Shown: positions 30,101 to 37,901 of the stretch, one piece after another | How positions within the stretch are numbered: position 1 is the stretch's first letter | Layout: each line of letters opens with the position of its first letter | From: a virus | Virus record (IMG/VR): IMGVR_UViG_3300042486_000812 | Location: 1-38,047 of that record | Length of the DNA stretch: 38,047 bases | Reading direction: 5' to 3' (one strand) | Notes under the pieces: generated by a model | Told to the model about the DNA's origin: nothing | Database searches by the model: none | What the model saw: only the letters and a program-made list of their open reading frames with translations | Made by a program: the position numbers and the translations under genes

Positions 30101-30816
30101 TGTCCGTCCCTCCATACCGCTGTGATGCGTGAAAACTCGATGAGCCGCCGCATGATCGGCTCGCCTCGGTCTTCGCTGAACATTTTGCAAAGGACATCGC
30201 TCTTGGCGTTGGCCGTCCAGATTGTCGGCAACATGTTGGACGTGCGGTGTTCCAGCACGGCGTAAAGCTCCATTTCTCCCCTCTCGGTCATGCGTTGTTT
30301 GCCGAGGTCGTCGAGAAAAAACACGCTTGCCGTGTAGCATGCGCGGAGGTCTTTCTCCGCTTGCGCCTTGCGTGCCTTGTCATCGGCGAATTGATCGACG
30401 CATATTTTCCCGAATGTGGTCGAGGTCATCGCCGCGCATCGGTGGCCTGCTTGCACCATCCGGTTCATCAGCAAATAAGCCGCCCGTGTTTTCCCCTTGC
30501 CAGCCATGCCCACGAAGCCGACTCCCACCGGGTTCCATGTCCAGGTGAAAGCCGCCTCGCGGAAGCGTGCATGGATTCGTTCGGGGTCGGTGTCGCGGTA
30601 GAGAGGCGGGCAAATCGCCAGAAAGGCGTCTTCCCGCGCTTTTTTCTTGGCCTCCGCTACCTTGACCCTCTCGGCGTCTTCCGACGCCTTGCAGGCCCGT
30701 TCTTGGCAAGCCTCGCACCGTGTCTGCGTGAAGATCGTCCTTCCGCCAAACTCCACATCGTGCGGAGCAAACCCCGTTGCGCAGTCCGCGCAGTCTCGTG
30801 TTGTCATCGTTTGCAT
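30097..30816 (-). CDS. DnaC-like helicase loader (AAA+)
   Basis: 239 aa from the ATG at 30814-30816, five bases after the initiator stop; an in-frame ATG 18 bases upstream (30834) lies inside the initiator gene. Walker A is GMAGKGKT (about 103-110) and Walker B FFLDDLG (about 166-172). A zinc-binding knob has C9, C12, C34 and C37. An Arg-finger-like region follows with EPIMRRLIEFSRI. It would load the host replicative helicase onto the phage origin, with the initiator encoded just upstream. No phage helicase is seen, so the host DnaB is probably used. Confidence 0.88.
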   Translation of the reverse strand: MQTMTTRDCADCATGFAPHDVEFGGRTIFTQTRCEACQERACKASEDAERVKVAEAKKKAREDAFLAICPPLYRDTDPERIHARFREAAFTWTWNPVGVGFVGMAGKGKTRAAYLLMNRMVQAGHRCAAMTSTTFGKICVDQFADDKARKAQAEKDLRACYTASVFFLDDLGKQRMTERGEMELYAVLEHRTSNMLPTIWTANAKSDVLCKMFSEDRGEPIMRRLIEFSRITAVWRDGQ

Positions 30817-30821
30817 GTCGT

Positions 30822-31466
30822 TCAGTAACTCCATTGTGATTTTTGAGCGGGGATTGCCGGGCTGGATTTTTTGAGCCAACCGAAAAAGCCCCGTTGGTTT
30901 GCTGCCGTTCCCTTGCTGGCGCAGTAACGCTGAAAGGTTTTCAGTTCGCCATCGACATCGCGGTCAGGGAAATTCCGCCGCATGTTCTCCAACCATTCCG
31001 CGTTTTCCGTTTCAAGGTCGCCGACTGGCTCCTCGCGCGTTGGTAGGTCTGTAGTAATATCTTCTCTTCTCTTCTCTACTCTGGTCACACTTTTGTCACG
31101 GTCTGAGCGTGACATTTTCGTGACTCTTTCCTTAGCCTTCCGCATTGAGGCAAGCCCTCTTTCCTTAGCACTTTGCGAGCAATGCCTATCAAAGTTCGGG
31201 AAGATGATTTTCGAGTTTTTTAGCTCAAGCCAGCCCGCCTCTTGCATGCTCTCTGCAAATCTTTCGTTCCCTGCAATTTTGTTCAAATGCGCGAGTGCCG
31301 CGATATGTGTCACGCCGTCAGCGTGACAATTTCGTGACGCCCAGCCCCATATTTTGAGTAGCCTTCCCACTACCGTATCGGGGTCCATTCCTGTGGCCGT
31401 TGCTATCTGAAAAACCTCGGGCTTTTCGTGTAGGTGCAACTCTACTTTGATCCATTCACCGGCCAT
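30822..31466 (-). CDS. Replication initiator-like protein
   Basis: 214 aa from the ATG (31464-31466) one base after the SSB-like stop. The N-terminal 110 residues resemble a DnaT/phage replisome-organiser winged helix: EWIKVELHLHEKPEVFQIAT, DTVVGRLLKIWGWASRN, and ESMQEAGWLELKNSKIIF. A basic linker follows, and a C-terminal region (about 150-214) with NMRRNFPDRDVDGELKTFQR YCASKG matches helicase-loader interaction tails. It should recognise the origin and recruit the DnaC-like loader. A shorter paralogue lies at 36922-37308. Confidence 0.72.
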   Translation of the reverse strand: MAGEWIKVELHLHEKPEVFQIATATGMDPDTVVGRLLKIWGWASRNCHADGVTHIAALAHLNKIAGNERFAESMQEAGWLELKNSKIIFPNFDRHCSQSAKERGLASMRKAKERVTKMSRSDRDKSVTRVEKRREDITTDLPTREEPVGDLETENAEWLENMRRNFPDRDVDGELKTFQRYCASKGTAANQRGFFGWLKKSSPAIPAQKSQWSY

Positions 31467-31467
31467 A

Positions 31468-31776
31468 TTAAAAAGGAATCTCCTCCCCCGTGTCATCATG
31501 CGTCCGGCCTTGGTATCGGTCAGCCGGTCCCTGCGGTTTCCCTGCTGGCACACTGGCTTTTTTGAGATACTTCCAATTGCCGATGATCGGGCCGCGCTCG
31601 CCATTGTCCCGCCGCTCCTTGGAAATCTCCTGCGTTACAAATCCATCGTTGCCAAACTGGTCAGGCCCGCCCTTGTTGGCAAAGCACACGAGCCCGACAT
31701 ATTTCCCGTTCTTCCCGACATAGATTTCGCCCTTCTCGATCTTGGTGACATTGATGCTGGCTTTAATTTTAATCAT
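31468..31776 (-). CDS. SSB-like protein with acidic C-terminal tail
   Basis: 102 aa from ATG 31774-31776. The N-terminal half (IKIKASINVTKIEKGEIYVG, KNGKYVGLVCFANKGGPDQF) and the following FVTQEISKERRDNGERGPII fit an OB-fold-like, short phage DNA-binding family. The C-terminus is DDTGEEIPF, a close match in form to the DDDIPF tip of bacterial SSB, which binds replication and repair partners. It lies between RusA/recombination genes and the initiator, as expected for a phage SSB. No canonical SSB family call was possible by eye. Confidence 0.65.
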   Translation of the reverse strand: MIKIKASINVTKIEKGEIYVGKNGKYVGLVCFANKGGPDQFGNDGFVTQEISKERRDNGERGPIIGNWKYLKKASVPAGKPQGPADRYQGRTHDDTGEEIPF

Positions 31777-35089: not shown

Positions 35090-35127
35090 GCCTTCGTCGG
35101 GTTGCCGCCCGTCGAAGGCACTTTTTT
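35090..35127 (+). terminator. Plus-strand-oriented terminator hairpin
   Basis: GCCTTCGTCGGG (35090-35101) and CCCGTCGAAGGC (35108-35119) form a 12-bp stem with one mismatch and a 6-base loop. On the plus strand it is followed by ACTTTTTTG (35120-35128). On the minus strand (the operon direction) there is no T run. It would block plus-strand transcription heading into the region with the antisense gene at 35898. Confidence 0.7.
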
Positions 35128-35147: not shown

Positions 35148-35297
35148 TCAGTCCTCGTCGTCAAATTCTTCCCATCGGCGCTTGCGCTCTTGGAAGTCAC
35201 GGATTTCGTTGCGGTAGCTATCGCGTCCGAGGTAATAGGAGGCGAGGCACGAGCCGAGGGTTAGAACGGCAATTGAAATGGCGAGGGTGGCGCTCAT
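35148..35297 (-). CDS. Tiny N-terminal membrane/signal-anchor protein
   Basis: 49 aa, start ATG at 35295-35297 overlapping the upstream stop. The first 22 residues are hydrophobic (SATLAISIAVLTLGSCLASY), followed by a charged tail (RNEIRDFQERKRRWEEFDDE). This predicts a membrane-anchored peptide with a cytoplasmic or periplasmic charged tail. Not recognised. Confidence 0.55.
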   Translation of the reverse strand: MSATLAISIAVLTLGSCLASYYLGRDSYRNEIRDFQERKRRWEEFDDED

Positions 35298-35515
35298 TTT
35301 GCCTCCTTCACTCTTTTAAAATTCAATTCAAACAGCTCCCTGTCTTTGTTTAGGAAGAACAAAGTTTTTATCGCTGTGTTCCAAAGAAGTTGATTGCTTT
35401 CGGCTTTATCAATTTGTGAAAAAAACTTAACACCAGCCCTTTTAAGTCTAATTTCAAATCTCTTAGGAAGGTGCATATCAAAACTTCCATCGAACCCGGC
35501 TTTTGTTGCCCTCAT
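35294..35515 (-). CDS. Small basic protein, unknown
   Basis: 73 aa, ATGA-overlapping on both sides. It reads KAGFDGSFDMHLPKRFEIRL, KRAGVKFFSQIDKAESNQLL and TLFFLNKDRELFELNFKRVK. The coding DNA is A+T-richer than the flanking genes. The LPKRFEIRLKRAG segment looks beta-rich. Unrecognised. Confidence 0.6.
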   Translation of the reverse strand: MRATKAGFDGSFDMHLPKRFEIRLKRAGVKFFSQIDKAESNQLLWNTAIKTLFFLNKDRELFELNFKRVKEAK

Positions 35516-35730
35516 TTTCTCTTCCCCTTCTTTGTCCGTGGTTGCGGAGGCTCAGGAAACCTCGCCCAGTAAACAGGCGCATCCGGCAGGCGCTCGGCGG
35601 AAATATCCCGCCATGTCTCCCCGTCCAGAAATCCGGTTGTGACATCCCCGTCCTCGAGGGCGAGGATCACCGTCTCGTCAGCATCCGGCAGCTCGTCGGT
35701 CGAGGCGATCCATTCGATGCTCGAGGTCAT
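35512..35730 (-). CDS. DUF551-like small protein
   Basis: 72 aa from ATG 35728-35730. The pattern SSIEWIASTDELPDADETVI then LALEDGDVTTGFLDGETWRD and PVYWARFPEPPQ matches DUF551 (W-I-S-x-x-x-x-L-P ... V.HW.PLPEPP). DUF551 proteins are frequent phage early proteins of unknown function. The C-terminus is basic (PRTKKGKRK). Confidence 0.75.
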   Translation of the reverse strand: MTSSIEWIASTDELPDADETVILALEDGDVTTGFLDGETWRDISAERLPDAPVYWARFPEPPQPRTKKGKRK

Positions 35731-36248
35731 TTGGCTCTCCCTTCCGTCTTGCAAGCCAAAGCCAATTCAGGGCGAAAGCTGGTAGATAAAGCTTCCGCTT
35801 CTTCCCGAGAACCCACTACTTGCACTTCATGCCGACATTTTGCCTCCCCTTTCTCCGTTGACGCTACCGCAGCGCATCCCGTAGCCTGCGCCCAGTTATG
35901 GGAACCAAACTCGCAGGGATCACAGTCGGGAAGCTCAAGGCAGAGCTGGAGTGTTGGCCGGATGACATGCAGCTCACATTTGGAGGTCTCACCTTTTATC
36001 GCCTCAAGCAACGCGGCCCGGAATTGCTCCAGATGGAGTTCAACCAGACGGTCTATCTTGATAGCGAAGTGATAGTCCGGGTGAGCGAGCACAACATTCT
36101 GTCTCGGGAACTCCCCGGTTCTGGCAGTAATTAACGCCGCCAACACATTTTGCCCGGTAGTCTGCGGGTAATAGGAAGCATCCATGCGGCCATCGATCAT
36201 CTCGACCGCCCCACCGGAAGGGATTGGGATTCTGAGCGAGCGGTTCAT
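35727..36248 (-). CDS. Early-operon protein overlapping an antisense gene
   Basis: 173 aa with ATGA junctions to both neighbours, so it fits the coupled operon. The first 50 residues (NRSLRIPIPSGGAVEMIDGR) look protein-like. The middle (about 48-117) is the exact antisense of a well-conserved-looking gene at 35898-36134. The tail ends SFRPELALACKTEGRAK. It could be a real gene with an embedded antisense partner, or an operon ORF preserved only as a reading frame. The coding status of the middle is uncertain. Confidence 0.5.
   Translation of the reverse strand: MNRSLRIPIPSGGAVEMIDGRMDASYYPQTTGQNVLAALITARTGEFPRQNVVLAHPDYHFAIKIDRLVELHLEQFRAALLEAIKGETSKCELHVIRPTLQLCLELPDCDPCEFGSHNWAQATGCAAVASTEKGEAKCRHEVQVVGSREEAEALSTSFRPELALACKTEGRAK
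35898..36134 (+). CDS. Antisense small gene of the GLTFYRLKQRG family
   Basis: 78 aa on the plus strand. It reads ITVGKLKAELECWPDDMQLT, then FGGLTFYRLKQRGPELLQME and FNQTVYLDSEV. GGLTFYRLKQRG...(Q)xEFN followed by a Tyr-Leu-Asp closure is, to my recollection, the signature of a common short phage protein of unknown function. It is therefore likely to be a real gene although it runs against the operon. No convincing Shine-Dalgarno sequence precedes ATG 35898. The start may instead be in the GGGATCACAGTCGGG region. Confidence 0.7.
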   Translation: MGTKLAGITVGKLKAELECWPDDMQLTFGGLTFYRLKQRGPELLQMEFNQTVYLDSEVIVRVSEHNILSRELPGSGSN

Positions 36249-36502
36249 TTTGCCTCCTCCACCAGTTTGACCTTGAGCGAAGCGCTACCGACCGGACGAA
36301 CTTCGGCCACGAGTTGCAGAATCTGATAAGTCGCAGACGATGCGGCATCCCGATCCTTCAACGGCGTGTCTGACTCTTGCCACCAGTCCGCAAAATCCTT
36401 CCGGATGAATGCCTCTGCCCCTGCGCGGGTCTCGTAGGGGCCGAAAATGTTCATCATCCCGATTTTCTCGGCCTCCGTGTCGATCACGTAAAAGGCGCTC
36501 AT
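36245..36502 (-). CDS. Small early protein, unknown
   Basis: 85 aa from ATG 36500-36502 overlapping the upstream stop. It has SAFYVIDTEAEKIGMMNIFG, YETRAGAEAFIRKDFADWWQ and ATYQILQLVAEVRPVGSASL, i.e. an alpha/beta protein. The YVIDxEaekiG and GPYxTRxxAExxI pattern resembles short phage proteins with a WGR-like or response-type fold, without certain identity. ATGA coupled. Confidence 0.65.
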   Translation of the reverse strand: MSAFYVIDTEAEKIGMMNIFGPYETRAGAEAFIRKDFADWWQESDTPLKDRDAASSATYQILQLVAEVRPVGSASLKVKLVEEAK

Positions 36503-36618
36503 CGTGCGATTCTCCAGGTTGCCCAAGCCAGCCCGACAAGCGGGGCGATGGTGCCGAGGTATTGGATGAAATAGCCGAGCGAGCGGCAGACGGTTTGTGG
36601 GTCGTGTAGGTCGATCAT
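36499..36618 (-). CDS. Tiny membrane protein
   Basis: 39 aa, start ATG at 36616-36618 overlapping the upstream stop (TTATGA). A single hydrophobic segment (YFIQYLGTIAPLVGLAWATW) forms nearly the whole second half. Not recognised; presumably membrane-bound. Confidence 0.5.
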   Translation of the reverse strand: MIDLHDPQTVCRSLGYFIQYLGTIAPLVGLAWATWRIAR

Positions 36619-36755: not shown

Positions 36756-36925
36756 TCTTGGACCCCCTTCTCAACGGCTTCGTCGAGTTCTGAGACTTTC
36801 AGCAGGATCGAGCCGCCGAGTTTGTAAAACTTCACGATCCCCTCGCCTTTCAGCGCATAGAGGGTGGTAACTGAGATCGAGAGATATTCGGCCGCTTCCT
36901 TGGGCTTGAGGTATCCGGGGTTCAT
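36752..36925 (-). CDS. Excisionase/MerR-type helix-turn-helix protein
   Basis: 57 aa. Clear HTH_17/excisionase pattern: YLKPKEAAEYLSISVTTLYA LKGEG then VKFYKLGGSILLKVSELDEA. It overlaps both neighbours by ATGA. It may act as excisionase (binding the TTGACA repeats beside int) or as an early regulator. Its distance from int (about 36 kb in the window, under 3 kb on the circle) fits either role. Confidence 0.82.
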   Translation of the reverse strand: MNPGYLKPKEAAEYLSISVTTLYALKGEGIVKFYKLGGSILLKVSELDEAVEKGVQE

Positions 36926-37308
36926 TTCGATGCCTCCTCTTTTTCCAGTTCCGCGATGAGCGCTTTCATCATCCGGTGCGCGGATGTTCGCTTGGCAGAT
37001 AGGCTGCGTGTCTTCGCCTCCTTGCCGTTGTGTTTTTCAAAATTTACCAGGCTCGACTTGCCATTGCGGCGAGTCATCCAGCCCACCTTCACCAGCGCCT
37101 CGGCAAATCCGGTGCAGGCCGTCAGGCGGTCCAAGAATGCCTCCGCGCTTTCAGGTGCCGCGCCTTTTACCGAATGGGCGTCAAACCACACCCACACCCG
37201 CATCAACTTTCCGAGCACTGCATCGGTGTCGATTTTGAGATGGCTGGCGATTTCCATCACCTCGGGTTTGTCGGGAGTGCCAGACTCCAATTTTATCCAG
37301 CTACTCAT
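36922..37308 (-). CDS. Initiator N-domain paralogue (small, no C-terminal part)
   Basis: 128 aa from the ATG (37306-37308) overlapping the RHH stop; the frame is open further upstream, but that part is the RHH gene. It mirrors the N-terminal 110 residues of the initiator at 30822-31466. Both have SSWIKLESGTPDKPEVMEIA/EWIKVELHLHEKPEVFQIA, then IDTDAVLGKLMRVWVWF/MDPDTVVGRLLKIWGW, a FAEALVKVGW/FAESMQEAGW pair and a FEKH/FDRH. The C-terminal helicase-loader-interacting region is absent. It may compete with or regulate the full initiator. Confidence 0.7.
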   Translation of the reverse strand: MSSWIKLESGTPDKPEVMEIASHLKIDTDAVLGKLMRVWVWFDAHSVKGAAPESAEAFLDRLTACTGFAEALVKVGWMTRRNGKSSLVNFEKHNGKEAKTRSLSAKRTSAHRMMKALIAELEKEEASK

Positions 37309-37475
37309 TTCGAGGCCCTCCGCTTGCTCTCTTTTTGCCGATCCATTTTTTCTTTCACGGCTTGAGCGATGATCCGGGAAACCGGCATCCGGCCTTCCGC
37401 TGCGGCTGTCTGCTTCAGCCAATCCAGCATGTCGCTTGGCATACTGACGCTTGTTTTTACGAATGCGTTTTGCAT
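37305..37475 (-). CDS. Ribbon-helix-helix regulator, first gene of the early operon
   Basis: 56 aa from ATG 37473-37475. It has a single beta strand (AFVKTSVSMPSDMLDWLKQT) and two helices (ISRIIAQAVKEKMDRQK), as in Arc/CopG-type proteins. It is the first gene of the leftward early operon and overlaps the following gene by ATGA. With the divergent RHH gene at 37635 it forms the apparent lysis-lysogeny or early control node. Confidence 0.8.
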   Translation of the reverse strand: MQNAFVKTSVSMPSDMLDWLKQTAAAEGRMPVSRIIAQAVKEKMDRQKESKRRASK

Positions 37476-37634
37476 GGCGCATTTCTTACTACCAAGTCGT
37501 AAGCGGTAGCAATAATTTATTAGTAGATCACCCCATATCGAAGCGTAACTTTTCTGTTGACATCCGCATGAACACTAAGTTTGCGGACGAAAATTTATTT
37601 TTGATTTAGTAGTAATTCATGCTACTATTCAAAT
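37476..37634. promoter_or_regulatory. Divergent early control region with TAGTAG/CTAC half-sites
   Basis: 159 bases between two divergent RHH genes. Half-sites are CTACC (37489-37493) facing GGTAG (37505-37509), TAGTAG (37521-37526), and TAGTAG (37607-37612) facing CTACTA (37622-37627). A TTGACA hexamer lies at 37557-37562. For the plus gene TTGATT (37601-37606) and TACTAT (37623-37628), spaced 16, would give a transcript beginning near the ATG at 37635 (leaderless). These look like RHH operators overlapping promoters. Confidence 0.55.
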
Positions 37635-37901
37635 ATGAAATCAGATTCCTTGTGCAAAAAAGTCAGTGTTTCCTTGCCTGCAAAACTCCACGAATGGCTT
37701 ATTCAAGAATCTCAAAAAGAGAGCGAAAATAGAGGGTCAAGATTGACCGTTTCCGCACTGATTCAGGAAATCATTAATGATTGGAAAAAGGGAAAAGCAG
37801 CCTCCCCAGAGCCTGTTGGTGTAAAGACCTTGAAGCTGTCCGCGAATTTAGACACTGGGTCCTCGAAAGCTGGGACGGACCGCTCCCGGAAGACTGGATA
37901 G
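37635..37901 (+). CDS. Ribbon-helix-helix repressor candidate (divergent)
   Basis: 88 aa. The first 55 residues have the RHH pattern: SLCKKVSVSLPAKLHEWLIQ, SRLTVSALIQEIINDWKKGK. The tail (about 56-88) is Ser/Lys-rich and of low complexity (KLSANLDTGSSKAGTDRSRK). A different frame in the same 3' region encodes a much more protein-like stretch, so the native gene may be frameshifted here. Divergent to the early operon, it is the best candidate for a lysogenic repressor, as no CI-type protein is found. Coding DNA is A+T-richer than average. Confidence 0.75.
   Translation: MKSDSLCKKVSVSLPAKLHEWLIQESQKESENRGSRLTVSALIQEIINDWKKGKAASPEPVGVKTLKLSANLDTGSSKAGTDRSRKTG

Follow-up and report, generated by a model that had tools for sequence, protein, structure and literature searches.

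Two protein genes probably share one stretch of viral DNA on opposite strands: judging from sequence comparison, an old phage gene lies on the plus strand, enclosed by a minus-strand gene that belongs to the early operon and is translationally coupled within it. The window, which here means the whole 38,047-base virus record, carries genes for terminase, portal, head, tail, tape-measure, RecT and exonuclease as well as an integrase gene, all of them on the minus strand; no CI repressor gene was identified within the window. Comparison of the window with three relatives shows that both frames are kept and that purifying selection acts on each of the two proteins within the overlap. From these substitution patterns, both strands are very probably protein-coding.

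A sequence-only reading of this DNA had pointed to a 78-codon plus-strand ORF inside a 173-codon minus-strand ORF, and both are present as described (Table 1), with 237 letters in common. The codon boundaries of the two ORFs coincide, every minus codon being the reverse complement of a plus codon (phase 0). The same reading had tied the minus ORF to both of its neighbors by ATGA overlaps, and these are seen at either end; the minus start codon has GGAGGCAAA ahead of it. On the one hand, an open antisense frame by itself is unremarkable: given the plus protein and the codon usage of the window, the probability of such a frame in phase 0 is about 0.19. On the other hand, the retention of both frames in the three relatives together with the pattern of substitutions is, as far as sequence comparison can tell, more than chance.

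Table 1. Features of the nested gene pair and its surroundings (positions are those of the window)
Feature	Position	Strand	Remarks
Plus-strand gene, family phrog_21180	35898..36134	+	78 codons, ATG start; hmmscan, 61 viral loci, codon model, AlphaFold
Minus-strand early-operon gene	35727..36248	-	173 codons, ATG start; constrained in codon model
N-terminal part of minus gene outside plus ORF	36135..36248	-	minus factor 0.18, plus factor 0.97 on 36138-36245
C-terminal part of minus ORF beyond plus ORF	35730..35897	-	truncated or replaced in L002 and L004
ATGA overlap of the minus gene start with the stop of the minus-strand gene upstream	36245..36248	-	GGAGG before it; GGAGGCAAAATG at 36246-36257
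ATGA overlap, minus gene stop and DUF551-like gene start	35727..35730	-
Upstream minus neighbor, 93 codons	36245..36526	-	matched single-strand control
Downstream minus neighbor, DUF551-like	35512..35730	-	Pfam DUF551 E = 0.002, below cut-off; phrog_924 E = 5e-7; single-strand control
Internal GGAGGCAAAATG	35836..35847	-	matching junction ends the 137-codon minus gene in L002
TGA opposite plus EFN, in the other minus phase (partner stop elsewhere)	36040..36042	-	out of frame for minus ORF
Weak promoter-like site, TTGACG-N18-TAGCCT	35858..35887	+	10 nt before plus ATG; hexamers identical in all four relatives
Inverted repeat that could form a hairpin masking the plus start codon	35877..35903	+
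Terminator-like hairpin, plus direction	35090..35127	+	-22.6 kcal/mol, z -4.8

The plus protein matches phrog_21180 (hmmscan, E = 7e-17, profile positions 11-66 of 70). The peptide GGLTFYRLKQRGPELLQMEF, in which the sequence-only reading had recognized a common short phage protein, is a true signature of this family, although the family itself is annotated with "unknown function". A homology search with the plus protein, proposed in that reading as a check, returned many homologs, and the gene therefore cannot be dismissed for want of them. Scans of viral contigs found the phrog_21180 gene at 41 and then 61 loci, a count that takes in the three close relatives of the window and some near-duplicate loci. 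The plus protein is 50% identical to its counterpart in Pseudomonas phage LPPA56 and 37% identical to those of JBD68 and Solano. Most family members share the motif GL-x-F-Y-R-x-K ... EF[N/S], the conserved core residues L, L, G, F, R, K, E and F are all found in the window protein, and this protein extends ~12-14 residues further at its C-terminus than most other members. AlphaFold predicts one helix and four strands, with a mean pLDDT of 79 and a compact core above 90. Sequence and fold searches of the PDB gave no significant match for the plus protein, searches of Pfam, NCBIfam and PADLOC with either protein gave nothing at cut-off, and two scans of bacterial genomes yielded no confirmed relatives.

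Only the window and three relatives (71-91% identity) are known to carry the minus gene, and searches of phages, plasmids and genomes found no further homologs. The gene and its coupled, ATGA-overlapped start are kept in all four phages. In one relative (L002), a different upstream neighbor extends as far as the minus start codon, and the minus gene is shorter, with 137 codons, ending at a GGAGGCGAAATGA junction; in another (L004), homology stops just left of the plus start. No protein constraint was seen in the C-terminal part of the minus ORF, for which one usable comparison has 14 differences, and AlphaFold gave no confident model of the minus protein (pLDDT 32). Exact copies of GGAGGCAAAATG occur three times on the minus strand (35295-35306, 35836-35847 and 36246-36257), one of them within the 173-codon ORF and the others at gene starts; when one mismatch is allowed, there are six matches vs 0.7 expected. 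These copies may be exchange points for small genes.

Because the two frames are in register, selection on the two strands can be described by an exact joint codon model. We used a 64-state model with one factor for amino-acid change in the plus protein and one for change in the minus protein, both dN/dS-like, and ran it on the window and its three relatives, the only four sequences that carry the nested form. Over the 78 codons of the overlap, the plus factor was 0.26 (LRT 13.8, p = 2e-4) and the minus factor was 0.30 (LRT 12.0, p = 5e-4); in the conserved core of the overlap, they fell to 0.10 and 0.16, respectively. The minus-only segment, 36138-36245, serves as an internal negative control, and here the minus factor was 0.18 (p = 1.5e-4) and the plus factor was 0.97. 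In simulations under either one-gene null, the observed ratios were reached in 0 of 200 runs each. Substitutions track the codon positions of both frames, and the plus third positions, which are the minus first positions, vary most (25/78 vs 5/37 in the minus-only part).

Single-gene segments show how far such a signal can arise spuriously. The median antisense factor across 56 control segments from related loci was 0.83; however, one of the 56 gave a strong spurious signal (LRT >6.5 with an antisense factor <1), and we therefore take the error for a second strand to be ~2% rather than the nominal p value. The best-estimated neighbor in the same phages, at 36,245-36,526, gave 0.04-0.18 on its own strand and 0.90-0.98 antisense, and a 57-codon neighbor gave an antisense factor of 0.40 that was not significant. 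Family members compared without the nested minus gene gave 0.39-0.82, and one further pair has just 14 differences.

The sequence-only reading had left a choice between a minus ORF that is only a passive frame around an inverted gene and coding on both strands, and the constraint on both frames favors the latter. It is true that the minus protein is an orphan and that long antisense frames also lie opposite several other phrog_21180 members, as might be expected if the plus gene alone worked and the minus ORF were simply open opposite it. However, the part of the minus ORF outside the overlap evolves as a protein, the part inside is constrained as well (the values are given above), and the ATGA-overlapped start is kept in all four phages, which makes a passive minus frame very improbable. 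The converse is that the minus gene alone works, the plus ORF being a phrog_21180 fossil that has lost its ribosome-binding site and is kept open by conservation of the minus protein. We consider this unlikely: the plus frame is independently constrained (LRT 13.8, 0 of 200 simulations), its third positions are the most variable ones, and the near-invariant residues of the family are mostly retained in its product. What speaks for a fossil is that, as read by eye, no Shine-Dalgarno site precedes the plus ORF in any of the four nested members, whereas most phrog_21180 members outside the window clade have one; in addition, the coupling signals on the minus gene are strong, and codon-on-codon antisense frames stay open fairly easily.

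A third explanation would dispense with both proteins and have the DNA kept for a regulatory antisense RNA or some other signal, for which the inverted repeat over the plus start might be cited. This is scarcely credible given that substitutions follow the codon positions of both frames and that the plus family, with its confidently predicted core, is conserved as protein at 30-50% identity. Two working genes on opposite strands thus remain the reading that we prefer.

The promoter-like site ahead of the plus start scores below the tool's own threshold; speculatively, it would give an almost leaderless plus message. A plus-strand terminator had also been reported just upstream of the plus ORF. 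The hairpin and its T-run are real, but they lie ~770 nt away and could not be linked to the plus ORF; the hairpin was not seen in the aligned relatives and is probably unrelated to the gene pair. We also considered a terminator as a part of the system more generally and rejected it, as a plus-direction one was present within 250 nt upstream in just 6 of 29 loci, the window not among them. In L068, L073, L085, L086, L087 and L090, a plus-direction terminator hairpin with a T-run precedes the plus gene core by no more than ~130 nt.

In other phages, a minus-strand partner gene converges on the plus gene, and the two overlap at their tails. This partner was found at 27 loci among 32 distinct proteins tested (one a near-duplicate), using a profile built from ten partners; more than half of the 27 loci were not used in building it, and all 27 share ancestry, so that the number is not a count of independent events. 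Nearly all of the overlaps are 59, 62 or 68 nt long, with 20 and 125 in two cases, and they are always congruent to 2 modulo 3. In 26 of the 27 loci, the TT[C/T]-A of the plus EF-N or EF-S reads as the partner stop codon on the opposite strand; the exception, L058, has EFE there, and the partner stop uses another F-S. The partner is mostly absent from PHROGs (one of ten members matched phrog_9767). Convergent partner loci include L008, L013, L014, L020, L023, L025, L027, L029, L048 and L055-L110.

The window pair resembles the convergent pairs of LPPA56, JBD68-like and other phages in that the plus gene belongs to the same family, and in LPPA56 and JBD68-like phages, as in the window, a minus-strand early gene overlaps the 3' end of the plus gene. 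However, in those phages the overlap is mostly confined to a tail of 59-68 nt with a single fixed phase, whereas the plus gene of the window is fully nested in phase 0, and the partner-type arrangement (a stop opposite EF-N/S, 2 modulo 3) is not found in the window pair. The N-terminus of the minus protein resembles the partner gene weakly. This likeness is at most suggestive: 20 of 4,000 shuffles score as high, as do background ORFs, and the hhalign E value is 0.08. On this basis, we make no claim of identity between the partner gene and the minus N-terminus; the whole minus gene may have arisen de novo, but distant homology to the partner is also possible. The nested form could have arisen from a tail-to-tail pair through one frame-changing insertion or deletion in the shared tail, which would have lengthened both genes. 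More broadly, we tentatively propose, as possible rather than probable, that an antisense pair made up of phrog_21180 and its partner is widespread at the lysis-lysogeny switch, the stop codon of the early gene being built into the conserved EF-N/S motif of the lysogeny-direction gene, and that in the window clade a frame change turned this into double-strand coding over the full 78 codons, the two proteins being made in opposite phases of the life cycle.

Outside the window, the plus gene is mostly oriented opposite to the early operon, the long leftward genes running the other way; in one exception, L024, it is in line with its neighbors. A CI-type S24-domain repressor lies on the plus strand less than ~1.1 kb from the plus gene in six loci, and in LPPA56 and the P. 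aeruginosa record NZ_CP124653, CI-like repressors are co-directional with the plus gene. We infer that the plus gene would be expressed in lysogeny or while lysogeny is being established, with the early operon silent, and that expression of the minus gene would coincide with activity of the operon in early lytic growth. With such opposite timing, the two messages would rarely coexist, and collision between them would be limited. As for the regulators of the window itself, small divergent ORFs at 37305-37475 (minus) and 37635-37901 (plus) lie at the head of its early operon. The former has a weak ribbon-helix-helix match below cut-off and the latter has no Pfam match; the two are possible candidate regulators. 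Two window genes, at 30822-31604 and 36922-37482 and both on the minus strand, match the replication initiation family phrog_2509.

The closest arrangement to have been studied experimentally is that of Pseudomonas phage Fc02, where olg1 (sie1), a small plus-direction gene that neighbors the repressor and points the same way, overlaps an opposite-strand early-operon gene (gene 10) just after the antirepressor (PMC9936078). In the lysogen, strand-specific RNA-Seq detected forward transcription across olg1 and the repressor, and after induction it detected transcription of the reverse-strand gene 10; the Olg1 and gene 10 proteins were both made from plasmids and both excluded superinfecting phages (PMC9936078). 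The Fc02 genes differ from the window pair in their PHROGs (7132 and 38063) and in the phase of the overlap, and the window pair is known from sequence. No sequence similarity was found between the plus protein and Fc02 Olg1 or between the minus protein and gene 10. Because neither gene is homologous, Fc02 supports a possible mode of action for such a pair but does not place the window pair in the same system.

Antisense overlapping genes are a known kind; however, convincing fully nested antisense pairs are few, and clear selection on both strands is hard to obtain (PMC7457138). In E. coli O157:H7, pop/ompA and laoB are cases of a protein gene embedded antisense in another, and the origin of laoB has been explained by overprinting (PMC7103648, PMC5810103). 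Those reports take expression as their point of departure, whereas the case for the window pair is built on substitution patterns; in the window, moreover, it is the embedded gene rather than the surrounding one that is widespread. In a limited literature search, neither the full nesting of this pair nor the phase-locked overlap of gene tails in the wider family was found described. With its frames in register, the window pair allows selection on each strand to be separated by one exact codon model, and the minus gene itself supplies an internal control. Across the wider family, arrangements range naturally from overlapping tails to complete nesting, a series that bears on how double-strand coding arises and on whether the separation of lysogenic and lytic timing makes it tolerable.

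The minus protein showed no homology to the minus gene that overlaps the plus gene in Solano. In the records of JBD68 (KY707339, match at 30422-30598) and Solano (OR683411, 8139-8315), the plus gene is unannotated and only the overlapping minus gene is annotated; thus, annotation can miss such genes.
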